From the NCBI GenBank assembly GCA_930633525.1, contig CAKNFP010000001.1:2768001-2832000 (forward strand): DNA of 64,000 nt, read 5' to 3'. The notes below the pieces were generated by a model that saw only the letters and a program-made list of their open reading frames with translations, was not told the DNA's origin and did no database searches. Position numbers and translations under genes: made by a program. Each line of letters starts with the position of its first letter. Position 1 is the first letter of the stretch. Source of the DNA: Hyphomicrobiales bacterium (GTDB lineage Bacteria > Pseudomonadota > Alphaproteobacteria > Rhizobiales > Beijerinckiaceae). Positions 23,969 to 37,089 of the stretch are shown in pieces.

Positions 23969-24343
23969 TCAGGTCGGGCGGGCCAGGATATCCTGCATCG
24001 CGACGTCCGCAGCAGCGATGGCCGCATCGAACCGCCGAAAGAGCATCTTGAGCTCCGGCGTTGCGGGGTCAGCCAGAGCACCTTCGATGTCCTGGACGAT
24101 GGCGGCCATCTTCCAGGCTCCTATGGCGCGGGAAGAGCCTTTCAGGGTGTGGGCGGCGTCGCTGCGCGCGCGCAGATCGCCGTGCCCTATGATGACGGCG
24201 TGTTGCTGGCGAAGCTGATCGCGGAAGAGGCCGATGATCTCGCACGCGAGCTCGCGGTCACCCCCGGTCTGTTGATCGAGGTAAGCCTCATCAATATCCA
24301 CAGCATCTTTGGCCGGGGAAGCCTCTCCGAATCGCTCACTCAT
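23969..24343 (-). CDS. Free-standing histidine phosphotransfer (Hpt) protein
   Basis: Small cytoplasmic phosphorelay intermediate of 124 aa. The phospho-accepting histidine is His65 in AAHTLKGSSRAIGA, the classic Hpt motif, within a four-helix bundle. It has no kinase or receiver domain. The ATG at 24343 (MSERFGEAS) is favoured by GAG 6 nt upstream; an ATG at 24361 lacks any SD. It is divergent from the giant repeat protein and precedes the ferredoxin gene. It is not ChpT, which has a histidine-kinase-like dimer fold. Its partner kinase and regulator are not in the neighbourhood. Confidence 0.9.
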   Translation of the reverse strand: MSERFGEASPAKDAVDIDEAYLDQQTGGDRELACEIIGLFRDQLRQQHAVIIGHGDLRARSDAAHTLKGSSRAIGAWKMAAIVQDIEGALADPATPELKMLFRRFDAAIAAADVAMQDILARPT

Positions 24344-24665
24344 AACACGCTCATTGTTCATGCAGATGTTGCACACAGACTGGGGCACCATGCAGCGCTA
24401 TCGCCGCTCCATCAACATTCTTCGCAACCTCTACGATGACCGATAGCGGCGTGGATCGAGAGCGCCAAAAGGGGTAAAAAAGCCGTTAACGAAACTCTCA
24501 ATTGCCTCTTGCCTCGGGTTTCAATTGCGGCGTCGGGGGGTTAAGCTCTCATGGTAAACAGCGGTATTTGCTGAATGTTTGCCGATAGCGGCGGCACACT
24601 CGGCAAGATCGGGGAGGAGGCACCCTGATCGCCGCTTGAAATTGGGGGCGATGCGAGGCGGCGAC
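24344..24665. other. Divergent hpt / growth-pole-ring intergenic region
   Basis: This 322-nt spacer has TTAA half-sites near 24484 and 24541 but no full CtrA box. A 12-bp direct repeat CCGATAGCGGCG occurs at 24440-24451 and 24582-24593. A 19-codon frame at 24390-24446 is too short to call. Promoters for both flanking genes should be here. Confidence 0.5.
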
Positions 24666-27600
24666 ATGGCCAAAGAAAATAAACTCGTTGATCCGACACA
24701 GGAAGCACTGTCGGCGCTGGAACAGGCGTTGACGCTGAATGTGGCGGACATGCAGGCGCCGGGCTCCCAGGCGAAAACCGCCGATTCCAAGGACCTCAAG
24801 GACACGCGGTTGCCCGACACGCGGGATGACGAGATGTTCGCGGGCAAGGGCCGGGATTCCGCGCCTTCGGAACCGACCCGCCCCGGGCCGAACCATATTG
24901 ATCCCCCTCGCCCCGCCGCCGTTATCGCGCCGGATCCTTCGCGCGTCGCCAACGATGACCGCCAGTCCGTCGGCGCCCTGCTCCAGACCTTGCAACAGAA
25001 GCCTTCGCGGGAGCCACTCTGGTTCGCGGCCTTGGCATCGCTGTGCTGGCTCATCGCGATGGGCGCCTTCCTCAACGCACGCTATGGTGTCACCACCAAT
25101 GGCGTGGAGAACGTGCTCGCCACCCTCGCCCCGACGGATTGGGGGTTGATGGGCATCTTGCTCATTGGCCCGGTGCTTCTGTTCTTCGTGCTGGCCATCC
25201 TGAGCGTGCGCACGCAGGAAATGCGTCATGTCGCGCGCGCCATGACCGGGGTCGCCGTCCGTCTCGCCCAGCCGGAAACATTGGCTTCGGAGGCGGTGGT
25301 CAATTTGTCGCAGGCCGTTCGCCGCGAGGTCGCAGCCATCGGTGACGGCGTCGAGCGCGCACTTGCCCGCGCCGGCGAGCTGGAGACACTTGTCCGCAGC
25401 GAGATTTCCACGCTCGAACGCGCTTACCAGGGCAATGAGATCCGCATCCGCACCCTGATCGATGAGCTGGTCGCACAGCGTGAAGCGATCGTCGCGAACG
25501 CCGACCGCGTGCGTGGCTCGATCACGGGTGCTCATGAAAATCTCACCCAGGAACTTGAGACGGCCGGCCGCAATCTCGTGGAGGCTGTGACGACGGCGGG
25601 CACGAAGGCCGCCGAGTCCCTCGGCTTCAAGGGCGAGCAGATGGCCCAGACGCTGGATCAGATCAGCGATCGCATGCTGAACGAGATGCAGAACCGTGGG
25701 ACCGGCCTCGTCGATCGCCTCAGCGCCACGGCAGAGAGCGTCAATGTGCGCCTCGCCACCGCGAGCAACGAGGTCACCGCGCTTCTCGACAAGAAGGGCC
25801 TGGAGATCTCGCAGACCATCGAGCAGACCGGGCAGAAGCTCAACGCCGGCCTCCAGGAAAGCTCCGTCGAGGTTACGCGCAAGATCGCCGCGACCGGCTC
25901 GGAGATCGCCGACAGCATCGCTCGCAAGGCGGGCGAGGTGAATGAGACCCTGAGGACCACGGGCGAGGCCCTGGGCACGACCTTGGGCGAACGGGGCGCG
26001 GAGGTCAGCCGCCGCATCGAGGAAGTGGGCGCGGGTGTCGCGACGACCATTTCCCAACAGGGCAGCGAACTCAACGAGACCATCTCCGTCGCCGGCCAGA
26101 AGGTAGCCAGCACCATCGTGCTGCGCGGCACGGAAGTGACGGAGCGCATCGAGGAGGTCGGCCGCGGCGTCACCGAAACCATCGTGGAGCGCGGCGGCAG
26201 CCTCGCGGATCGCCTCGCCTCGACCGGCGATCGCATCCACGAAACCATCGAGACGAACGGCCGCACGCTCGAAGAGACGTTGTCCGCCACGGGCGACCGG
26301 GTCGCGACCCTCATCGGCGAGCAGGCAAACGGCGCCCAAGGCGCCTTCGAGACCAGCGCCAAGCGTTTCGCGGAAGATTTCGTGAGCCGGACGGCCGAGT
26401 TCCGAGCCGCCATCACCAACCAGACGACCGAAGCGCAGGAACTGCTCAGCGGCACCGGCAATGAAATCGTGCTGGCCGTGGCAGCGCAGGGCACGCGCGT
26501 CAACGACACCCTCGCCCGCAACGCGGAAACGCTGGCACGCACGATCAACGAGCGCAGCCGCAACCTGGACGAGACCCTGCTGCAGCGCCTCGCGGCCTTC
26601 GAGCAGAGCATCGAGGCCGGCGGCGGCAAGCTCTCGTCCTCGCTCGAGGGCAGGCTCGCGGCCTTCGAGGCAAGCATCGCGACCGGCGGCGGAAATCTGA
26701 CCGCGGCCCTCGACGGGCGGCTCGCGGCGTTCCAATCCGGCATCCAGGACGGCAGCGGCCAGTTGGCGGCCACAATCGAGGAACAGTTGACTGCGCTGTC
26801 CAATGCCCTGCAGAGCGGCGGCGAGCAACTGGCCCAGACGCTGGCGGGACGTATCGATACGCTGAAGGCCAGCATCACTGAAGGTGGCCAGCAGCTCTCC
26901 ACTACCCTCGACGGACGCATCACCACCTTCATCAAGAGCGTCCAGGCCGGCACGCACCACCTCTCCGCAACGCTCGAGGGCCGCCTGAACGCCTTCAACA
27001 CGAGCATCAATACCGGCGGCCAGCTGATCACAGCTTCGATCGACGAGCGCCTGGCCGCTTTTGGCCTGCGTCTCGACGACGGCGGCAAGCAGCTCGCCAA
27101 CGCCCTGGATGAGCGCCTGGCAGCGCTCAACGGCGGTATCAACGAAGGTGGCGCGCGCCTTGCCGCGACCCTCGACGGACGACTGGCCGCGCTCAATGCC
27201 AGCGTCAACGAGGGCGGGAGCCAGCTTGCCGCAACCCTCGATGAGCGGCTTGCGGCCCTCAATGCCGGCATCAGCTCGGGAAGCGGACAACTCGCCGCCA
27301 CCCTGCACGATCATCTGTCGACCTTTGGCGATCGCATCAACGGCACGAGCGAGCAGCTCGCCGCGACGCTCGATGGACGTCTCGCATCGTTCAACGCGGC
27401 GATCGACACCGGCAGTCACCAACTTGCGACAGCCATCGACACACGGCTCAGCACCTTCAACAGCCGAATCGACGATGGGGCGAACCGCCTCGCGGACGCG
27501 CTCGACACACGTCTGGCCGTCTTCGGAAACGCGATCGGCGATGGCAGCACCCGCCTGGTCGAGGCCCTCGATGGCAGGCTGGCCACGTTCAACAGCCATG

Positions 27601-30600
27601 TCGAGGACGGCGCAACCCGCCTCGCAGACACGCTCGACACGCGTCTGGCCGTCTTCGGAAACGCGATCGGCGATGGCAGCACCCGCCTGGTCGAGACCCT
27701 CGATGGCAGGCTGGCCACGTTCAACAGCCACGTCGAGGGCGGTGCCACTCGCCTCGCCGACACCCTCGATATGCGCCTTGCTGTCTTCGGCGATACCATC
27801 GGAAAGGGCAGCACGCGCCTTGTTGCAACGCTCGATGACAGGCTGACGGTCTTCAGCAACAGGATCGAGGGCGGCAGCAGCAAGCTCGCCTTGACCTTGG
27901 ACGAGCGGCTCGCCGCGCTGGACAACTCGGTCGATCAGGGCAGCGAAAAGCTGGCCGCTGCTCTCGACAGCCGGCTCGCCGCATTCGGCAGTCATGTCGA
28001 AGAAGGCAGCGAGAAGCTCACGACCACGCTCGACGACCGGCTCGCGACTTTCAACAACCGCATCGAGGATGGCACCGGCCGCTTGGCGGAAGCGCTTGAC
28101 GGACGCCTCGCGGCGTTCAGCACCACGATCCACGGCGGCGGCGACAAGCTCGCCGCGTCGCTGGATGGCCGGCTACAAGCCTTCGGCGAGCTTGTGGAGA
28201 CCGGCAACAACCAGCTCGCGACCACGCTTGATACAAGGTTGGCCGACTTCGGCTCCACGCTCAGCGACGGCAGCGAAAAGCTCGCCAATACGTTTGACGA
28301 GCGCCTGGCTGTGCTGAGCAGCCACATCAAGGACGGCAGCGGCGCGCTCACCAGCACCATCGACGAACGGATCTCAACCTTCATCGAAGGGATCGAGGCC
28401 GGCAGTTCCCACCTTGCGTCCACGCTGGACGAGCGTCTCTCGGCTTTCGACGGGAGCATCAAGGACGGGAGCAGCGGGCTCGCGACCGCACTCGACGAGC
28501 GCATCGCGGCTTTCGCCAAGACCCTGGCGGATGGCGGCGAACACCTCGCGACAACGGTCGAGGGGCGGCTTGCGGCGTTCGACAGCAGCGTCAAGAACGG
28601 CGGCGGCCAGCTGCTCCAGCTGCTGCAGCAGCGCCTTTCCGCCTTCGAGACCACTGTGGAAAGCGGCACGGGACGCATCACGACAGCGCTCGACGCGCGC
28701 CTGTCGGCCCTCGAGACGACTGTCGAGGGCGGCGCCGGCCGCCTGACCGCCGCGCTCGATGACCGGCTGACCGTGCTGGAAACCAGCCTGGAAAGCGGCA
28801 ACAATCGTCTCAATTCGACGCTCGAGAACAGGCTTGCAGCCTTTACCGACAGCGTGGTCTCGGGCGGGCGGCAGCTCGACACGGTCATTGGCGAGCGCAT
28901 TGCCGGCTTCGAAGACGTGGTCGACACGCGCTCGCGCTCGCTCGACTTCGCTCTTGCCTCACGCCTCGCGAGCTTCGAGAACCTCGTCAATACCGGCGGG
29001 CAGGAGCTCATCGCGACCCTCGGCATGCGTATCGGCAGCCTGCAGGAGCTCATGGAGACACAAGGCCAGAAGCTCGACACGACGCTGACCAACCATATCG
29101 GCACGCTGCAGGAGACCGTCGTCATCCACGGCAGCACGCTCGTGGACCGCATCGCAAAAGACACCGGCCGCTTCACCGAGGTGGTCGAGGCGCAACTTAC
29201 CGCCGTGCGCGACCTGTTCGCGACCCATGGCGAGGAACTCGGTACCGCGCTTGTCGAGCGCAGCCGCTCCGCGGCCGAGGTCATGGAGCAGCAGATCGCG
29301 GCAATCGAACAGCGTTCAGCAGCGAAGAGCGGCGAGATCGCGAAGAACCTCGACACCCTCATCACCGGCATCGACGAGGGCCTCGGAGCTCGCGCCAATG
29401 CCCTGAGCGAGGCGCTGATCCGCCATACAAGCGGCATCGCCCGCGTCCTCGCCGAAGGCGGACGCGACGTGACACATGCCCTGCAGGTCAAGGCCGACGA
29501 GATCGGCAGCATGGTCTCCGGCAAGAGCGAAGCCCTTACCGAGATCCTTTCGCGCAAGGCCGAAGAGATCAACCAGACGCTCGGCGGCCGTGCCCTGGAG
29601 ATCGCCTCCACGCTCGACCAGCGCGTCGCGCGCTTCGAGGAACGCGTCGTCGATCGCCTGGATTCGGTCTCGACCACCCTGGACGAGCGGGGCCGCCGCT
29701 TGAGCGAGGAGCTGACACTGCGGTCTGAGGCCATCGACTCGAGCCTCGGCAATCGCATGGCAGAACTGTCATCGCTGTTCGGCGAGAGGGGCACCAACCT
29801 CGTTACCAGCCTTGGCGACCAGGGCGAGGCGATCGCCCGCGAGCTCGCCTCCATCGGCGAAGCCGTTGTCCGCACGCTCGAGGCGCGCGGCCTGTCCGTG
29901 GCCGATGCCGTCCGCGAGCGCAGCGAACACATGACCGAACTCTTCGCCGCGTCGAGCGAAGGCCTGCGTCAGGCCATCGACGCGGGTACGAGCCAGTCCA
30001 TCGACGCGCTGGTCGCGACCAACGACCGCCTGCGCGGCGAGCTGTCCGGCGTGCTCGGCCGCTTGTCGGAGGCCAACCAGCTCCTGCAGCAGCTTACCGC
30101 CGGCGCCAGCACCAATCTCACGAGCGTCGAGGAGGGCCTCGGCCACCGCGTGCGCGAGCTTGAGACCGTTCTGGCCACCGTGACCCAGGAGGCGCAGCGC
30201 GCCTCCAGCGAGGTGGGGGCGCAGGTGGAGGCTTTGCGCGAAGTGTCGAGCGGGTCCGTTCAGACCGCCAACACGCTCACCCAGCAGCTCGCAACCCAGG
30301 GCCAATCCGTCGCCCAGCTCACGACGGATCACGTCCAGGCGCTCGCGACGGCCGCCTCGACATTGGACAGTGTGGAAACGCGCCTCGGCGCCGCCCTCGA
30401 AAAGCGCCGCGCGACGCTGGAGAACCTGCTCGGCGCCGTGGCGGAGCGCACCGGTGATATCGAGCAGATCACGGGCTCCTTCAACGCGCTGCTGGCCGAT
30501 TCCCTGGAGGATGCCCAGAAGAAGGCACGTCAGATCGGCACGCTCCTGTCCAGCAACGCCGAGTCGACGACACAAGCGCTCACCGAGCAGTTCAACCAGA

Positions 30601-31661
30601 TCCGCGTGACGACCGATCATGAGCGCGAGCAGACCGCCGCGGCGCTGCGCAAGGCCTATGAACAGGTCCTCAAGGAGATGGGCGAAGGTCTCGGCAAAGC
30701 GACCGAACGTTTCCACGGCATTGCGGACGACATGCGCTCTGTCTCCGGCGAGATCCGCCAGGAACTCGATGCAACGCGCCGGGAGCTTCAGCGCGGCATG
30801 GTCGAGCTTCCGCGAGAGACGCAGGAAAGCGCCACCGCGATGCGACGTGTGGTGGCTGATCAGATCAAGGCGCTTAACGAACTGACTGATATCGTGTCCC
30901 GCCAGGGCCGGTCTCTCGACGTGGCCGAGCCTCGGACGAGCCAGCGCGGGGATGCCGGCCCGCGCATGGAAGCGCCCGTGCGCCGGAGCCCCCCTCCTTC
31001 AGCCGAAGGCACAGCGCCTCGCCCGAGTGGGCCAGCGCCGTCCGCGCAGATGCGCCCCCAGGCGACAGCCGTCGCCGATAGTTTCACCGATGCGGCCGCG
31101 CGCCTTGCTCCAGGCCGTCGGGAGGAAGCTGCGGCGCCGACCCCGGCCCCTGGCCCGGCGCGCGATACCAACCCGACGGGAGCCCGTGGCTGGCTGTCTG
31201 ATCTCCTGGTGCGGGCCTCGCGTGATGAAACCGCGCCGAAGGCTACGGACCTCGCTGCCAAGCTCGTGGACGCCCCGCCGCCTGCCCCTCAGGAACGCGG
31301 CGAGCGTTCCCCCCGGCATACGATCGAGCTTCTGGACTCGATCTCGGTCGATATCGCGCGGATGATCGACCACGACGCTGCGCTTGAGCTGTGGGAGCGA
31401 TACAAGCGCGGTGAACGCAACGTCTTCACCCGCCGGCTGTATACGCTCCAGGGCCAACAGACCTTCGAGGAGATCCGGCGGAAGTATCGTCGTGATCCCG
31501 AGTTCAGGGATACGGTGAACCGCTACATCGAGGAATTCGAGAGGCTGCTCGCCGAGGTGTCACGCAAGGACAGGGACTCGGTCATGACCAAGACCTACCT
31601 GACGTCCGAGACGGGCAAGGTCTATACGATGCTCGCCCACGCGACTGGGCGTTTCGACTGA
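24666..31661 (+). CDS. Giant membrane-anchored repeat protein, growth pole ring (GPR/RgsE) type
   Basis: A protein of 2331 aa. It matches in architecture the GPR protein of Agrobacterium and RgsE of Sinorhizobium, which form a ring at the growing pole and are needed for polar growth of Hyphomicrobiales. N-terminal 116 residues are soluble. Two transmembrane helices follow (about 117-137 and 159-181), placing both ends in the cytoplasm. About 450 residues of helical repeats come next, several with clear 22-residue period. Residues 640-1497 are 39 uninterrupted 22-residue apolipoprotein-like repeats. A further long coiled-coil region runs to about 2085. A Pro-rich linker (2086-2208) and a compact C-terminal domain follow (about 2213-2331: HTIELLDSISVDIARMID, YKRGERNVFTRRLYTLQG). 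The ATG at 24666 has GAGG 7 nt upstream. It is monocistronic, with a strong terminator. The family call is from architecture and memory of GPR, not alignment. Confidence 0.85.
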   Translation: MAKENKLVDPTQEALSALEQALTLNVADMQAPGSQAKTADSKDLKDTRLPDTRDDEMFAGKGRDSAPSEPTRPGPNHIDPPRPAAVIAPDPSRVANDDRQSVGALLQTLQQKPSREPLWFAALASLCWLIAMGAFLNARYGVTTNGVENVLATLAPTDWGLMGILLIGPVLLFFVLAILSVRTQEMRHVARAMTGVAVRLAQPETLASEAVVNLSQAVRREVAAIGDGVERALARAGELETLVRSEISTLERAYQGNEIRIRTLIDELVAQREAIVANADRVRGSITGAHENLTQELETAGRNLVEAVTTAGTKAAESLGFKGEQMAQTLDQISDRMLNEMQNRGTGLVDRLSATAESVNVRLATASNEVTALLDKKGLEISQTIEQTGQKLNAGLQESSVEVTRKIAATGSEIADSIARKAGEVNETLRTTGEALGTTLGERGAEVSRRIEEVGAGVATTISQQGSELNETISVAGQKVASTIVLRGTEVTERIEEVGRGVTETIVERGGSLADRLASTGDRIHETIETNGRTLEETLSATGDRVATLIGEQANGAQGAFETSAKRFAEDFVSRTAEFRAAITNQTTEAQELLSGTGNEIVLAVAAQGTRVNDTLARNAETLARTINERSRNLDETLLQRLAAFEQSIEAGGGKLSSSLEGRLAAFEASIATGGGNLTAALDGRLAAFQSGIQDGSGQLAATIEEQLTALSNALQSGGEQLAQTLAGRIDTLKASITEGGQQLSTTLDGRITTFIKSVQAGTHHLSATLEGRLNAFNTSINTGGQLITASIDERLAAFGLRLDDGGKQLANALDERLAALNGGINEGGARLAATLDGRLAALNASVNEGGSQLAATLDERLAALNAGISSGSGQLAATLHDHLSTFGDRINGTSEQLAATLDGRLASFNAAIDTGSHQLATAIDTRLSTFNSRIDDGANRLADALDTRLAVFGNAIGDGSTRLVEALDGRLATFNSHVEDGATRLADTLDTRLAVFGNAIGDGSTRLVETLDGRLATFNSHVEGGATRLADTLDMRLAVFGDTIGKGSTRLVATLDDRLTVFSNRIEGGSSKLALTLDERLAALDNSVDQGSEKLAAALDSRLAAFGSHVEEGSEKLTTTLDDRLATFNNRIEDGTGRLAEALDGRLAAFSTTIHGGGDKLAASLDGRLQAFGELVETGNNQLATTLDTRLADFGSTLSDGSEKLANTFDERLAVLSSHIKDGSGALTSTIDERISTFIEGIEAGSSHLASTLDERLSAFDGSIKDGSSGLATALDERIAAFAKTLADGGEHLATTVEGRLAAFDSSVKNGGGQLLQLLQQRLSAFETTVESGTGRITTALDARLSALETTVEGGAGRLTAALDDRLTVLETSLESGNNRLNSTLENRLAAFTDSVVSGGRQLDTVIGERIAGFEDVVDTRSRSLDFALASRLASFENLVNTGGQELIATLGMRIGSLQELMETQGQKLDTTLTNHIGTLQETVVIHGSTLVDRIAKDTGRFTEVVEAQLTAVRDLFATHGEELGTALVERSRSAAEVMEQQIAAIEQRSAAKSGEIAKNLDTLITGIDEGLGARANALSEALIRHTSGIARVLAEGGRDVTHALQVKADEIGSMVSGKSEALTEILSRKAEEINQTLGGRALEIASTLDQRVARFEERVVDRLDSVSTTLDERGRRLSEELTLRSEAIDSSLGNRMAELSSLFGERGTNLVTSLGDQGEAIARELASIGEAVVRTLEARGLSVADAVRERSEHMTELFAASSEGLRQAIDAGTSQSIDALVATNDRLRGELSGVLGRLSEANQLLQQLTAGASTNLTSVEEGLGHRVRELETVLATVTQEAQRASSEVGAQVEALREVSSGSVQTANTLTQQLATQGQSVAQLTTDHVQALATAASTLDSVETRLGAALEKRRATLENLLGAVAERTGDIEQITGSFNALLADSLEDAQKKARQIGTLLSSNAESTTQALTEQFNQIRVTTDHEREQTAAALRKAYEQVLKEMGEGLGKATERFHGIADDMRSVSGEIRQELDATRRELQRGMVELPRETQESATAMRRVVADQIKALNELTDIVSRQGRSLDVAEPRTSQRGDAGPRMEAPVRRSPPPSAEGTAPRPSGPAPSAQMRPQATAVADSFTDAAARLAPGRREEAAAPTPAPGPARDTNPTGARGWLSDLLVRASRDETAPKATDLAAKLVDAPPPAPQERGERSPRHTIELLDSISVDIARMIDHDAALELWERYKRGERNVFTRRLYTLQGQQTFEEIRRKYRRDPEFRDTVNRYIEEFERLLAEVSRKDRDSVMTKTYLTSETGKVYTMLAHATGRFD
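26583..29156 (+). repeat. Array of 39 exact 22-codon (66-bp) repeats inside the giant gene
   Basis: Counting from Gln640 (QRLAAFEQ) to Ala1497 (LVDRIA) gives exactly 39 units of 22 residues, 2574 bp, with no insertion or deletion. The consensus is xRLAAFxxxIxxGGxxLAxxLD: hydrophobic at positions 3, 6, 10, 17 and 21, a central Gly-Gly or Gly-Ser at 13-14, and Asp or Glu at 22. Twenty-two residues equal two hendecads, the geometry of apolipoprotein helices and straight coiled coils. Confidence 0.95.
27510..27773 (+). repeat. Recent 132-bp (two-unit) duplication in the repeat array
   Basis: Positions 27510-27641 and 27642-27773 are tandem copies. The first roughly 96 nt differ at only two sites, whereas other units of the array share protein pattern but have diverged DNA. 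The protein copies read TRLAVFGNAIGDGSTRLVE and GRLATFNSHVE twice. This indicates a recent unit gain by recombination or slippage. Confidence 0.9.
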
Positions 31662-32124: not shown

Positions 32125-32745
32125 TCACGCCCAGCGCACGATATCCCGGAGCACGCTCCCAAGCGCCTCGTCCAAGGCCGCAGCGCCCGCCGGACCGGAC
32201 AAGGTGCCACTAACGGGTACCTTGGCGGTGAAGATACGCGCAGAAACCACCTGCCCTGTCGAGGCATCGATGATGCGCGCTGCGATCTGGACGACGGCCT
32301 CGCCGGTGCCCGCTGTGATGTAGAACTGGCGCAATTCCGTCGCCAATTGCAAAGCGGCGATGGTGCCATCGCCCGGCCGCCCGACCCGGCGCAACTGGCC
32401 CGCATTCGTGAACGTCTGGATCAGACGTGTCTGCACGAGAGCTGGCAACCTGTCACTCCATTGGGCTCCGCTCAGGCTCGATACGGCTCCCGTGCGATCA
32501 TGGACGACGATCTGCTGGCTGTTGAGGGTCTCAAGGGCAACCGGTTCCGTCACGGCAAGCTGCCGCCCGCCACGCGCGCTCAAGCCGCTGCTCGGCGCGG
32601 TGAGATCGAAGGTCGGGGGCGGCGGTGAGGCGCAGGCGCCCAAACCGAGGGTCACCATCAACGACAAGGCTCGGACGGTCCATCCGCGCCCATCGATAGC
32701 CGTTTGCCGGGGACTGCCGCCGCGCGGCTCGCTCGCAGAACCCAT
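32125..32745 (-). CDS. ABC-type transport auxiliary lipoprotein (PqiC/YmbA-like)
   Basis: Periplasmic-facing lipoprotein partner of an MCE lipid transporter. The protein is 206 aa. Its signal sequence ends in a lipobox LGAC followed by ASPPPPTFDL, the TFDLxAP-like start typical of the ABC_trans_aux family. The remainder alternates beta strands and helices (VVHDRTGAVSSLSGAQWSDRLPALVQ, cited as location only). The second of two adjacent ATGs (32745) gives 7-nt spacing from GGAGG; 32748 is possible. It is last in the mlaE-mlaF-mlaD-lipoprotein operon, 44 nt after mlaD. Confidence 0.85.
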   Translation of the reverse strand: MGSASEPRGGSPRQTAIDGRGWTVRALSLMVTLGLGACASPPPPTFDLTAPSSGLSARGGRQLAVTEPVALETLNSQQIVVHDRTGAVSSLSGAQWSDRLPALVQTRLIQTFTNAGQLRRVGRPGDGTIAALQLATELRQFYITAGTGEAVVQIAARIIDASTGQVVSARIFTAKVPVSGTLSGPAGAAALDEALGSVLRDIVRWA

Positions 32746-32789
32746 CATAACGCCTCCAGAGCGCGGGTGTAGTGAAGGGAACCGGCCCA

Positions 32790-33905
32790 TCAGCGCGGGC
32801 CGCTATAGGCTGGCAAATTCGGCTTGGCGCCGAAAATGAACTGCTGGGGATTACGCTGCACACTCTGCAGGGTGCGGTTGAGGTCGTTGAGCGTCCGGCG
32901 CGCGTCACTCGTCAGAGCCTCGACGTTACCAAGGCCAGGACCGGTAAAGCGCTTGATGCCTGCCGTGATCTCGGCGGTTCGCACGTCGAGGTTTGTGGCA
33001 AGCGTGCGGATGGCCCGCGCGGCCTCGGCAACCTGGTCAAACGCACCCTTGCCATCCGGAGAGCTCAGGAGACCCTGGGCTGACTTCAGCACGCCCTCGA
33101 CCTGGTCGGCCGCGCGGTCGAGCTTGGCGGTCAGCGAATTCACGTTGCGCAGGATCGTCTGCACGTCACCGGCGTTGTCGCCGAGGGCGGCCGTGAACCG
33201 GTCGACATTAGTGACGATCTCGGAAATCTTGTTCGTATCGACAGCCTTGATCGCCGCATCGAGGCTGGTCGACAGGCTCGACAAGCTCTTCGCCGTGTCT
33301 CCGGCGCTCGACAGAAGCTGATTGACGTTGTCGGAGTTGTCGCCAAGGGCCTGGGAGAACTTCTCGACATTGCGGACCGTGTTGGCGATCGGCGTCTGCG
33401 CATCGCCCACGACGCTGTCGATCTTGTTGAGCACGTCGTCGGCGCGCCGCGCCAGCCGCTGGGCCGTTTCCAGCAGGTCCTGAAAGTCCGACCGGTCGGC
33501 GTAGATCGTCGGCATCGGCTGGCCGGCCGCCGCCACCAGCGGCGCCGCCTTGGGATCGCCGCCCGTCATCTGGATGGAGGCGACGCCCGTCAAGCCCTGG
33601 TATTCGAGACGTGCCTTGGTATCCGAGTTGATCGGCACGCCGGAATCGACATCGACGATGGCAACCACGTGGCGCGGATCTTCCGGCAGGAGGCTGATGC
33701 TGCGCACTTCGCCGACCCGCAGGCCGTTGAACAACACCGAGGCGCCTCGCGAAAGGCCGGAGACGGACCCTGTAAAGACCACCCGATAGGATTCGCGCGT
33801 GCCGCCGCTGCCCAGCGCCGCGAACCAGTAGACGAACAGGAACGCGCCTGTGACGACAGCAAGGGTAAACAGACCGATCAGAGCGTAGTTGGCGCGTGTT
33901 TCCAT
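32790..33905 (-). CDS. mlaD: MCE (MlaD-type) lipid-binding protein
   Basis: Membrane-anchored MCE subunit, expected to form a hexameric ring that carries phospholipids across the periplasm. The protein is 371 aa: one N-terminal transmembrane helix (about 7-28), an MCE domain (about 39-117, with YRVVFTGSVSGLSRGASVLFNGLRVG region and the TGVASIQMTGG end), and a long helical C-terminal part (about 140-345) that would form the central tunnel. It is longer than E. coli MlaD (183 aa), as usual for Rhizobiales. The ATG at 33905 is 6 nt from the mlaF stop. Confidence 0.93.
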   Translation of the reverse strand: METRANYALIGLFTLAVVTGAFLFVYWFAALGSGGTRESYRVVFTGSVSGLSRGASVLFNGLRVGEVRSISLLPEDPRHVVAIVDVDSGVPINSDTKARLEYQGLTGVASIQMTGGDPKAAPLVAAAGQPMPTIYADRSDFQDLLETAQRLARRADDVLNKIDSVVGDAQTPIANTVRNVEKFSQALGDNSDNVNQLLSSAGDTAKSLSSLSTSLDAAIKAVDTNKISEIVTNVDRFTAALGDNAGDVQTILRNVNSLTAKLDRAADQVEGVLKSAQGLLSSPDGKGAFDQVAEAARAIRTLATNLDVRTAEITAGIKRFTGPGLGNVEALTSDARRTLNDLNRTLQSVQRNPQQFIFGAKPNLPAYSGPR

Positions 33906-33911
33906 GGCTTG

Positions 33912-34763
33912 CTAACTATCACCCATCACTGCGCGCGCTCTCTTGCCATGGAAATATGCCTTCACCCAGGCATTGTCAGATGCCAGCATAGCCTCGATTG
34001 ACCCTTGAGCGATGATACGTCCTTCGCCCAGTGCCGCAATCCTGTCGCACACCGAATGAAGACTGTCGAGATCGTGGGTTACCATGAAGACCGTCAAGCC
34101 CAGCGTCTTCTGCAAGGTCGCGATCAAATCGTCGAACTCGCCCGCGCCGATCGGGTCGAGGCCCGAGGTTGGTTCGTCGAGGAAGACGATCTCCGGATCG
34201 AGTGCCAGAGCCCGCGCCAATGCGGCGCGCTTGATCATGCCGCCGGAAAGGTCGGACGGGTACTTGTCCGCGGCATCGGCCTTCAGGCCGACCATCTCGA
34301 TCTTCAACATGGCCAGCTCATCCAGCAAGCGTTCCGACATGCTGAGATATTCCCGCATCGGCACCTGAATGTTCTGCTTGACGGTCAGCGCCGAAAAGAG
34401 GGCTCCTTGCTGGAAGAGAACCCCCCATCGCCGCTCCACAGCCCGACGCGAATCGTCGCTGAGCTCATCAAGATCCTCGCCGAAAACCTCAATGGTGCCG
34501 TGGCGCTTGCGAACCAGCCCCAGGATCGTACGGGTCAACACGGACTTGCCCATACCCGAGGCGCCCACGAAGCCCAGGATCTCGCCTCGATACACGTCGA
34601 GGTCCAGGCCCTTCATGATGGTCTTCTCGCCGAAGCCGACCTCCAGGTCCCTGACCCGGATGACAATCTCGCGATTGTGCTCGCCGGTGCGGCCGCCCGC
34701 ATCATCGGCATAGCCCGGCTCTGGGGACCCTCCGTTGGTCGATGCGAGCTGCTGCTGGTCCAT
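33912..34763 (-). CDS. mlaF: Mla-type lipid ABC transporter ATPase
   Basis: Cytoplasmic ATPase driving lipid movement between membranes. The protein is 283 aa. The Walker A is GASGMGKS, the Q-loop region reads LFQQGALFS, the signature is LSGGM, Walker B is IVFLDEPTSGLDP, and the H-loop is VTHD. The variant signature LSGGMIKRAALARAL is typical of MlaF. About 33 extra N-terminal residues precede the ABC domain. The ATG at 34763 has GAGG 5 nt upstream, and starts 7 nt after the mlaE stop. Confidence 0.95.
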   Translation of the reverse strand: MDQQQLASTNGGSPEPGYADDAGGRTGEHNREIVIRVRDLEVGFGEKTIMKGLDLDVYRGEILGFVGASGMGKSVLTRTILGLVRKRHGTIEVFGEDLDELSDDSRRAVERRWGVLFQQGALFSALTVKQNIQVPMREYLSMSERLLDELAMLKIEMVGLKADAADKYPSDLSGGMIKRAALARALALDPEIVFLDEPTSGLDPIGAGEFDDLIATLQKTLGLTVFMVTHDLDSLHSVCDRIAALGEGRIIAQGSIEAMLASDNAWVKAYFHGKRARAVMGDS

Positions 34764-34770
34764 GCGCGCC

Positions 34771-35904
34771 TCAGAAGCGAATCGCGGCGAAGAACATCGC
34801 GAACAAGCCGTCCACGACGATCACCATGAAAATTGACTTCACGACCGCGGCCGTCACCTGCCGGCCGAGCGATTCAGCCGATCCCGCGACAGCCAGCCCC
34901 TCAAGGGAAGCAATCAGGCCGATGACAAGCGCCATGAACGGCGCCTTGATCATGCCGACGAGGAAGGTGTTGAAGTCGATCGCCGATTGCAGGCGGGCCA
35001 GATAGATCTCGGGGCTGATGCCTCCATAGATCCAAGCCACCAACCCGCCACCGAACAGCGCCGCCATCTCCGAGATGAAGGTGAGCAGCGGCAAGCCGAT
35101 GATCAAGGCAAGAACGCGGGGGATGATCAAAACCTCGATGGGATCGAGGCCCATCACGCGCAAGGCATCCACCTCCTCGCGCATCTTCATCGAGCCGATC
35201 TCCGCGGTGAAGGCGCTTCCCGAGCGGCCGGCCACCATGATCGACGTGAGCAGCACGCCGAGTTCGCGCAGCACGAGGATGCCGACCAAGTCCACCACGA
35301 AGGTGACGGCGCCGAAGCGTTGCAGCTGGAAAATGCCCTGCTGGGCAATGATGCAACCCACAAGAAACGAAATGAGCGCGATGATCGGCACGCCCCGGAA
35401 GGCGACCTGTTCAAGCTGATTGATAAGGGCCGTGAAGCGGAATCGCCGAGGATTGGCAAAAACGCGCGCAAGCCCGGCGGTGGTTTCGCCAAGAAAGCTG
35501 ATGCCGCGCGCCATGTCCCGCCCGGCATCGACCACAGCCTCGCCGACCTCCGCCAGAAAATCGACGAGCTTGGACTTCCGGCGTTTTGTTAGTTCATTGC
35601 CGCTACGGTAGGCGATCTCGTTGAGGAGAATGCTCTGCTCAGGACGCGCGCCCACGAAATCGGCGTGCAAGCCGCGATCGCCAAGCTCATGGCGCGTGCG
35701 ATCAAGCACCCAGGCACCCAGAGTATCGAGGCGCTGGATACCTGAAATATCGAGGATGACGCGGCCGGCTCCCTGGCTTGCGTCAATCAGGGTCTGCGCC
35801 TCTTTCTCGACAGCGGCCGCGTAAGGTGCCGTCCAAAGCCCGGAGAGCGTCGCCCTGATTTCGCTGCCAGCCTCTTCGGTCGCGGCGGTGGGTCCTGCGT
35901 TCAT
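34771..35904 (-). CDS. mlaE: MlaE-family permease with N-terminal STAS domain
   Basis: Inner-membrane permease of the lipid transporter. The protein is 377 aa. Residues about 15-105 form a STAS domain (VILDISGIQRLDTLGAWVL), here fused rather than encoded as a separate MlaB. The permease domain follows, with family motifs FRGVPIIALISFLVGCIIA, LRELGVLLTSIMVAGRSGSA and EIGSMKMREEVDAL, and about five transmembrane helices. The start at 35904 (MNAGPTAATEE) was chosen because everything upstream overlaps the divergent epimerase region and lacks similarity; its SD is weak. It is the first gene of the operon mlaE-mlaF-mlaD-lipoprotein. Confidence 0.93.
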   Translation of the reverse strand: MNAGPTAATEEAGSEIRATLSGLWTAPYAAAVEKEAQTLIDASQGAGRVILDISGIQRLDTLGAWVLDRTRHELGDRGLHADFVGARPEQSILLNEIAYRSGNELTKRRKSKLVDFLAEVGEAVVDAGRDMARGISFLGETTAGLARVFANPRRFRFTALINQLEQVAFRGVPIIALISFLVGCIIAQQGIFQLQRFGAVTFVVDLVGILVLRELGVLLTSIMVAGRSGSAFTAEIGSMKMREEVDALRVMGLDPIEVLIIPRVLALIIGLPLLTFISEMAALFGGGLVAWIYGGISPEIYLARLQSAIDFNTFLVGMIKAPFMALVIGLIASLEGLAVAGSAESLGRQVTAAVVKSIFMVIVVDGLFAMFFAAIRF

Positions 35905-36108
35905 GCACCTGTCTTGCCAGCCGACATCCACCCCCCCAGCGGACATCACGATTCCCAGTTTACGGCATCTGCAATCACGGATAGCGGCGATACCCCTCGA
36001 TGTCGAGCAAACCCATGCCGTACCGACGGAATAAGTGGTAAAGCTGCATCGCTGCAACATCACGGCGAAAGTCGTGGTTACCACATCCGGTCCACCAGAA
36101 GGTCTGTC

Positions 36109-37089
36109 ATGTCGCGCCGTCTCGCCGTCGCCATCGAACGCTTCCCGATCGCGGGAAAATTCGTCATCTCCCGCGGTGCCCGCACGGAAGCCGTCGTCGT
36201 GACGGCGACGATCAGCGACGGCGTCCATAGCGGTCGCGGCGAATGCGTGCCCTACGCTCGCTATGGAGAGAGTGTCGAGGGCGTTGCCGCGACCATTGAA
36301 AGCCAGCGCGCGGCGATCGAGGGCGGTCTCGATCGCCAAAGCCTCGGTGAAGCCTTGCCGGCAGGCGCGGCGCGCAATGCGCTCGACTGCGCCTTGTGGG
36401 ACCTCGAGGCCAAGATGACAGGGGTTCCCGCCCATGTGCTCGCAGGTCTCACGCGCGTTTCCCGGACAACGACGGCCTATACCATCAGCCTGGACACGCC
36501 AGCCGCGATGGCCGAGGCCGCGCAGCGCAGCGGCCGCCCCATCCTCAAGATCAAGCTTGGCGGCGCCGGCGATCCCGCGCGTATTGCCGCCGTGCGCGCC
36601 GCGGCGCCCGACTCAGTCGTCATCGCCGACGCCAATGAGGCCTGGACGCCCGAAACGCTGGCCGAGAACCTCGCGACTTGCCAGCGTGCTGACGTCGCGC
36701 TGGTCGAGCAGCCCCTGCCGGTAGGCGAGGACCACCACCTCGCCGCGCATCGCGGCGTCATCCCGCTCGGCGCGGACGAAAGCCTGCACACCCGGGAAGA
36801 CCTCGTCCGCCTGGCGGGGCTCTATGACGTCGTCAACGTCAAGCTCGACAAGACGGGTGGGCTGACGGAAGCGCTGGCCCTCGTTGCGGAGGCCGAGGCC
36901 CGGGGTTTCGGCATCATGGTGGGCTGCATGGTCGGCACCTCTCTCGCCATGGCACCGGCGATGCTCCTCACACCGAGGGCGCGTTTCGTCGACCTCGACG
37001 GCCCCCTCCTTCTCGCGGAAGATCGGCCCTTCGGCCTACTCTATGAAGGCAGCGTCGTCAGCCCGCCGACACGAGAGCTCTGGGGGTGA
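36109..37089 (+). CDS. L-Ala-D/L-Glu dipeptide epimerase (enolase superfamily)
   Basis: Predicted to epimerise L-Ala-D-Glu from peptidoglycan turnover to L-Ala-L-Glu. The protein is 326 aa. Muconate-lactonising subgroup residues are visible: the KIKLGG lysine pair, metal ligands Asp (IADANEAW), Glu (VEQPLP) and Asp (GADESLH), and the second-face lysine in NVKLDKTGG. The ATG at 36109 has AGAAGG about 6 nt upstream; the frame is open further upstream, but that part is non-homologous. It is divergent from mlaE. A short palindrome GTGGTTACCAC lies 24 nt before the ATG. Confidence 0.88.
   Translation: MSRRLAVAIERFPIAGKFVISRGARTEAVVVTATISDGVHSGRGECVPYARYGESVEGVAATIESQRAAIEGGLDRQSLGEALPAGAARNALDCALWDLEAKMTGVPAHVLAGLTRVSRTTTAYTISLDTPAAMAEAAQRSGRPILKIKLGGAGDPARIAAVRAAAPDSVVIADANEAWTPETLAENLATCQRADVALVEQPLPVGEDHHLAAHRGVIPLGADESLHTREDLVRLAGLYDVVNVKLDKTGGLTEALALVAEAEARGFGIMVGCMVGTSLAMAPAMLLTPRARFVDLDGPLLLAEDRPFGLLYEGSVVSPPTRELWG

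Follow-up and report, generated by a model that had tools for sequence, protein, structure and literature searches.

Conserved 11-residue register and variable rod length in a GPR/RgsE-type protein of a Hyphomicrobiales bacterium

In the giant protein described here, and among its relatives, the register of an 11-residue hydrophobic pattern is conserved, and the length of the rod that carries the pattern is not. The gene lies in a window (the whole 64,000-nucleotide stretch of DNA that was analysed) from a Hyphomicrobiales bacterium close to Chelatococcus, and a preliminary description had compared its product with the GPR/RgsE proteins of polar-growing members of this order. The regularity extends beyond the repeat array noted in that description, as a single register spans the whole rod (Table 1), and the rod lengths of relatives are concentrated at whole multiples of 11 residues from the length found here. 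We consider it probable, with some reserve, that the protein is a GPR/RgsE polar-growth scaffold with a register-locked hendecad rod, in an organism that appears to manage without MreB.

Table 1. Features of the rod gene and its neighbourhood (positions in the window; residue numbers of the protein)
Feature	Position	Strand	Basis or remark
gpr/rgsE ortholog, 2331 aa	24666..31661	+	translation and orthology alignment
First membrane helix, residues about 117-138	25014..25079	+	hydropathy
Second membrane helix, residues about 157-184	25134..25217	+	hydropathy
Conserved N-terminal cap, residues 182-330	25209..25655	+	conserved columns, <5% gaps, 75 relatives
Proline-free stretch, residues 204-2048	25275..30809	+	1845 residues
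Register-locked hendecad rod, residues 286-1803 (138 x 11)	25521..30074	+	constant phase, one lattice offset
39 units of 22 residues, residues 638-1495	26577..29150	+	2574 bp
132-bp tandem duplication, 3 copies, inside the array	27452..27845	+	84% matches
Post-rod helical segment, residues 1804-2086	30075..30923	+	periodicity changes, length nearly constant
Pro-rich linker, residues 2087-2174, variable	30924..31187	+	30 distinct lengths, 75 relatives
Conserved C-terminal domain, residues 2175-2331	31188..31658	+	predicted all helical
Hpt-domain gene, divergent, upstream of the rod gene	23969..24391	-	PF01627, E 2.8e-8
Mla-type lipid transport operon (auxiliary lipoprotein, MlaD, ABC protein, MlaE)	32125-36435	-	directly downstream

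The overall layout given in the preliminary description holds. Two hydrophobic segments are present near the N-terminus, the 22-residue units follow each other in phase with zero indels, and both the Pro-rich linker and the conserved C-terminal domain are present. The segments that flank the rod are nearly fixed in length among 75 relatives, with four distinct lengths between residues 121 and 254 and five between residues 1800 and 2085. The reading frame extends 87 bases further if it is begun at an upstream TTG. Two long open frames on the minus strand (24549-28133, 1194 aa, and 27992-29932, 646 aa) overlie the repeat array in antisense and are probably an effect of composition.

The family itself is already known, and the protein adds a member to it. 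The C-terminal domain aligns with that of a 2089-aa protein of Sinorhizobium meliloti at 58.5% over 171 residues (E 5.6e-63), and the N-terminal cap at 39% over 247 residues (E 1.5e-52). This protein is encoded in the 3.7-Mb Ak57 record, one of six C-terminal-domain matches in a search of a plasmid collection, where it is annotated as “kinesin”. Because its length equals the published length of RgsE, which is 42% identical to Agrobacterium GPR (PMC7327166), we take it to be RgsE. The alignments identify the present protein as an RgsE ortholog; the earlier comparison with GPR/RgsE is thus supported by alignment to RgsE, the tie to Agrobacterium GPR running through the published homology of the two, and the absence of C-terminal similarity, which the preliminary description had named as an outcome that would speak against the family, was not what we found against RgsE. 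The present protein resembles both RgsE (SMc00190, 2089 aa) and GPR (Atu1348, 2115 aa) in having two N-terminal membrane helices, a long rod that matches PF01442, and a Pro-rich linker followed by a C-terminal domain, and its two conserved ends are both homologous to those of RgsE. It differs from RgsE in that its register is unbroken over 1518 residues, whereas in RgsE a single register lasts 605 residues and is followed by several steps.

The gene is single-copy, as all four matches to the C-terminal part in its own genome lie inside one frame. The closest C-terminal domain from a named species (82%) is that of Chelatococcus asaccharovorans. No Pfam model matched this domain above its cut-off, and structure searches returned no solved structural relative of the protein. 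In the helical part, Baculo_PEP_C and ApoLp-III scored barely above their Pfam cut-offs; among NCBIfam models, the LA_3659 family reached 55.7 bits (cut-off 36), and SpiroCoCo, ZorA, ATP synthase B' and sll1863 stayed below their cut-offs. We read all of these matches as shared helical periodicity and reject membership in the corresponding families. A shorter relative, of 774 aa, is found in the Sphingomonadales (L185:4015-6339, a Sphingomonas parapaucimobilis record, large plasmid); its C-terminal domain aligns at 38% over 110 residues, and it also shows N-terminal similarity.

The repeats had been called exact, which is true of their length and not of their sequence: each unit has 22 residues, and neighbouring units agree on average in 45% of residues and 57% of bases. 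Between residues 601 and 1500, identity at an offset of 22 is 0.43, as against 0.036-0.129 at the other offsets from 5 to 69 (non-multiples of 22). Seven positions are nearly invariant in the 39 units (L1, R4, L5, F/L8, I/V12, G15, and L19). Underlying the 22-residue unit is a finer lattice, in which large hydrophobic residues occupy positions 1 and 8 of an 11-residue frame. The 3/11 periodicity exceeds the 2/7 periodicity in every scan window starting at residues 225-1721. The pattern holds the same phase between about residue 290 and residue 1803, after which the periodicity shifts. Within the rod, 270 of the 276 lattice sites are hydrophobic, compared with 118 of the 1242 other sites, and 81% of the large hydrophobic residues fall within 50 degrees of the resulting stripe. 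The lattice also continues on either side of the array (residues 286-637 and 1496-1803).

In the lattice scan, one run of this protein reached from residue 254 to residue 1815 without a slip (1562 residues, with the scan windows counted in), and the longest such run among the relatives has 1804 residues (L103). In the shuffle control (five shuffles of each of 155 proteins), runs of at least 99 residues occurred in 9 of 775 cases, the longest having 121 residues. Since the two-site score can take a switch of core positions for a -4/+7 slip, run lengths may be underestimates. To our knowledge, the hendecad stripe described here is among the longest unbroken ones known, and it far exceeds the familiar examples of hendecad coiled coils.

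The modulo-11 length test is independent of the lattice score. We defined the rod distance as that from conserved residue 254, past the membrane helices, to residue 1800 at the rod end, and measured it in 74 named or same-genus relatives (75 when landmark 200 was used). Genes of relatives were read as stop-to-stop open frames and recognised by the C-terminal domain encoded in them; the set includes apparent duplicates (L009 and L180 seem to be one gene, and so do L022 and L106). The rod distance ranges from 596 to 1546 residues, up to 2.6-fold, with 40 distinct values. Of these, 24 equal the value of the present protein modulo 11 (class 0). The remaining 16 lengths fall into class 10 (seven), class 7 (four), class 6 (four), and class 3 (one). 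Counted by sequence with landmark 200, class 0 holds 36 of the 75, class 10 holds 26, class 7 seven, class 6 five, and class 3 one. No comparable concentration appears in control segments of the same proteins, in which class 0 takes 2 of 30 distinct lengths (Pro-rich linker), 2 of 15 (a second linker), and 3 of 28 (the segment before the membrane helices).

The same tendency is seen across the order, sampled at about one genome per genus. Among the 54 of 80 representatives that could be measured, the rod distance runs from 522 to 2089 residues, and 18 fall into class 0, 15 into class 7, seven into class 3, five into class 10, and nine elsewhere; the other 26, including all 13 that bear MreB, were dropped as a landmark was absent or gapped. 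In the linker control (52 representatives), class 0 holds two, and there is no clear peak. The binomial values computed for this order-wide set assume independent lengths, an assumption that related species violate. The preliminary description had expected strong selection on length or register, and these observations support the half of that claim that concerns register and give no support to the half that concerns length. In our searches of the literature on GPR/RgsE, hendecad coiled coils and polar growth, mostly papers available without subscription, we did not find this register result reported, and the words “repeat”, “hendecad” and “ruler” do not occur in the main text of the GPR paper of 2021.

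A mutational origin of the length steps must also be considered, namely that they arose as a side effect when 66-bp or 33-bp repeats exchanged DNA, and that register was hardly under selection. Relative to L180, the present protein shows rod differences of 88, 11 and 22 residues, each of them within the array, as would be expected from exchange between repeats, and the gaps outside the rod are of 9, 6, 1 and 4 residues (a further 26-residue gap at the start stems from the stop-to-stop reading of relatives). The tandem duplication within the array, which looks recent, likewise favours repeat exchange. However, odd multiples of 11 make up 10 of the 24 class-0 lengths, for which exchange of the 66-bp unit alone is insufficient. 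The limited base identity of neighbouring units also speaks against DNA exchange, as does the persistence of the lattice on both sides of the array, in regions whose offset-22 identity is as low as 0.07-0.36. Thus, we regard this origin as unlikely.

The reading we prefer, that of a register-locked scaffold, can be put in mechanistic terms. The two membrane helices would anchor the protein at the inner membrane. The proline-free rod presents a narrow, straight stripe that returns every 11 residues (three turns) and would pack on partner rods as a hendecad coiled coil; the zipped rods would then form a stiff cytoplasmic bundle that keeps the conserved C-terminal domain, and the growth machinery that it may recruit through its partners, at the pole. 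Because the stripe must remain on one face in such a bundle, indels would be retained chiefly if their length is a multiple of 11 or if they displace the stripe little, as -4/+7 does, and rod length would otherwise be free. A stripe that stays on one face for 1518 residues, with two hydrophobic sites per 11 residues as in hendecad coiled coils generally, is what such packing would call for; the coiled-coil packing itself, the oligomer and a role as scaffold in the present bacterium are inferences. Polar location, the ring, and depletion phenotypes are carried over by analogy from homologs. In the consulted parts of the published work, GPR forms a ring of foci, both GPR and RgsE are located at the pole and give a shape defect on depletion (PMC8262873, PMC7327166), and two-hybrid assays show RgsA, RgsS and TolQ as interaction partners of RgsE (PMC7327166). 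According to the consulted parts of the same paper, S. meliloti Rm2011 survives mutation of rgsE.

Several observations count against a strict form of the lock, which is not universal. The single register of RgsE is far shorter than that of the present protein, and a number of genus representatives show several to many changes of offset in the lattice scan. All 30 Microvirga sequences differ from the present protein by a non-multiple of 11: the 26 members of class 10 are all Microvirga, one residue under a multiple, and the other four belong to class 6, a further -4 away. Because most Microvirga lattice runs slip once, near residues 670-860, the shift of class seems to go back to a single ancient event. 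The stripe is rotated by only about 33 degrees when the step is -4 or +7. The scaffold model is also weakened by the single-sequence structure model of residues 639-1100, which is helical at low confidence (pLDDT 64).

Published deletions in GPR bear on the register-locked scaffold in both directions, as far as the consulted parts of the paper allow (PMC8262873). GPR without its last 221 residues fails to complement, and removal of 332 C-terminal residues left more function than removal of 221, with rings still formed; this outcome is a poor fit to a simple role of either the C-terminal domain or the register. A deletion of about 20 residues near 413-433 had the strongest effect in an interference assay, beyond that of removing the entire domain around it, and a break of register could explain it. 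A similar deletion near 1100-1120 disturbed cell shape in the interference assay yet complemented well, which speaks against a simple register idea. The source is inconsistent about the sizes of these deletions, which appear there as 20 residues, as coiled coils of 21 residues, and under the ranges 413-433, 413-434 and 1100-1120.

An alternative function for the rod is that of a lipid-binding, apolipoprotein-like amphipathic helix that organises the polar membrane, as proposed for GPR; a lipid role is favoured by the GPR authors in the consulted parts of their paper (PMC8262873). The protein as a whole matches the Apolipoprotein A1/A4/E family model (PF01442) at 1.8e-86 and 289 bits, over 14 stretches and against a cut-off of 90, and it shares with that family an amphipathic periodicity of 11 and 22 residues. 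Against the lipid reading, single genomic pieces reach 27-53 bits, below the cut-off, and the model also responds below its cut-off in 7 of 14 control genomes. Apolipoproteins have 22-mers that are punctuated by proline, and their hydrophobic faces are wide. The present rod, in contrast, is free of proline, its stripe is narrow, and its array carries a net charge of -44, all of which argue against a helix lying on lipid; compared with solved apolipoproteins, the rod gave no significant match (best E-value 0.093). The Mla-type operon downstream in the window might point to lipid traffic, but it does not adjoin rgsE in the S. meliloti record. A lipid-organising rod therefore seems to us a rather poor prospect.

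The idea that the rod is a molecular ruler, whose fixed length sets ring size or cell width, is very improbable: three genomes of the genus (the present one, G002 and G003) do share the rod distance of 1546, and the fully extended rod would measure about 228 nm, close to the 200-nm GPR ring described in the consulted parts of PMC8262873, but in the fourth one the distance is less by 99 residues, and the ranges found among relatives and across the order are wide. The ruler suggested in the preliminary description is hence disfavoured in its fixed form; a ruler with a species-specific setting could still be accommodated. That register is kept while length varies argues against a fixed ruler and for a register-locked coiled-coil scaffold.

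With respect to the neighbourhood, the divergent Hpt gene is followed on its far side by a ferredoxin-type frame (PF00111). An Hpt gene occupies the same place in the S. meliloti record (L183:7207-7575) and the Sphingomonas record (L185:3619-3912), and in the latter the protein appears, from its sequence, to have lost the phospho-accepting histidine. The Hpt gene is present, always on the opposite strand, in 42 of the 72 sequences that reach 3 kb upstream (the present one counted); the other 30, which are 29 Microvirga loci and Ancylobacter (L087), lack it. A common regulatory link between the Hpt gene and gpr/rgsE is possible, and our literature search on an Hpt gene beside gpr/rgsE found nothing.

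The genome contains no convincing MreB, which fits a polar grower. Three PF06723 hits in its genome score 40-57 bits, as against 367-485 bits for MreB in relatives, and their frames of 455-671 aa would suit proteins of FtsA or DnaK type. Within the order, true MreB (best E below 1e-100) is found in 35 of 297 genomes, and the C-terminal domain in 292 of the 297, among them all 35 that bear MreB. At the sensitivity of the search, the domain was unmatched in five genomes (G033, G061, G116, G176 and G259), four of them from one genus, and none of the five has true MreB. A 2020 paper, in the parts consulted, calls Rgs and MreB “mutually exclusive”; the present counts suggest that MreB and RgsE-type proteins are not. 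The published survey retained RgsE lengths within 50% of the reference, according to the consulted parts of PMC7327166, and this filter may have removed short forms.

Short forms do accompany MreB. The open frames of the 13 MreB-bearing representatives have 915-1498 aa (median 1123), and those of the 68 others have a median of 1897.5 aa (range 1064-2940). The N-terminal cap aligned without gaps in 12 of the 13 (L161 gave no value). A tree built from the caps places these 13 representatives in roughly two clades, one of which also contains short proteins from MreB-less genomes (L164, L165 and L167), so that descent accounts for much of the association of short frames with MreB. A sample of 241 genomes of the class yielded the C-terminal domain in 101, of which 97 lie outside the order; most of the frames concerned are shorter than 1500 aa. 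In addition to the main gene, two genomes of one family (G180 and G249, family f27) have a further match to this domain, in short frames (448 and 476 aa), and two matches occur in other genomes of that family too.

On this basis we put forward, with slightly less than even confidence, a broader proposal: that GPR/RgsE is a register-locked fibre of free length which evolves mainly by 11-residue steps, that its rod was lengthened in MreB-less lineages from a short ancestor of a kind still seen together with MreB, and that the severe effect of the published 20-21-residue deletions in GPR stems in part from a broken register and not from a lost binding site. The fibre would evolve by whole 11-residue steps because its stripe must zip along the full length. 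GPR/RgsE is a giant component of the machinery by which Hyphomicrobiales grow from one pole without MreB. A conserved register together with a free length makes the label “apolipoprotein-like” testable, since deletions of 11n residues should be tolerated and others should not, and it offers an alternative reading of the published GPR deletion phenotypes.
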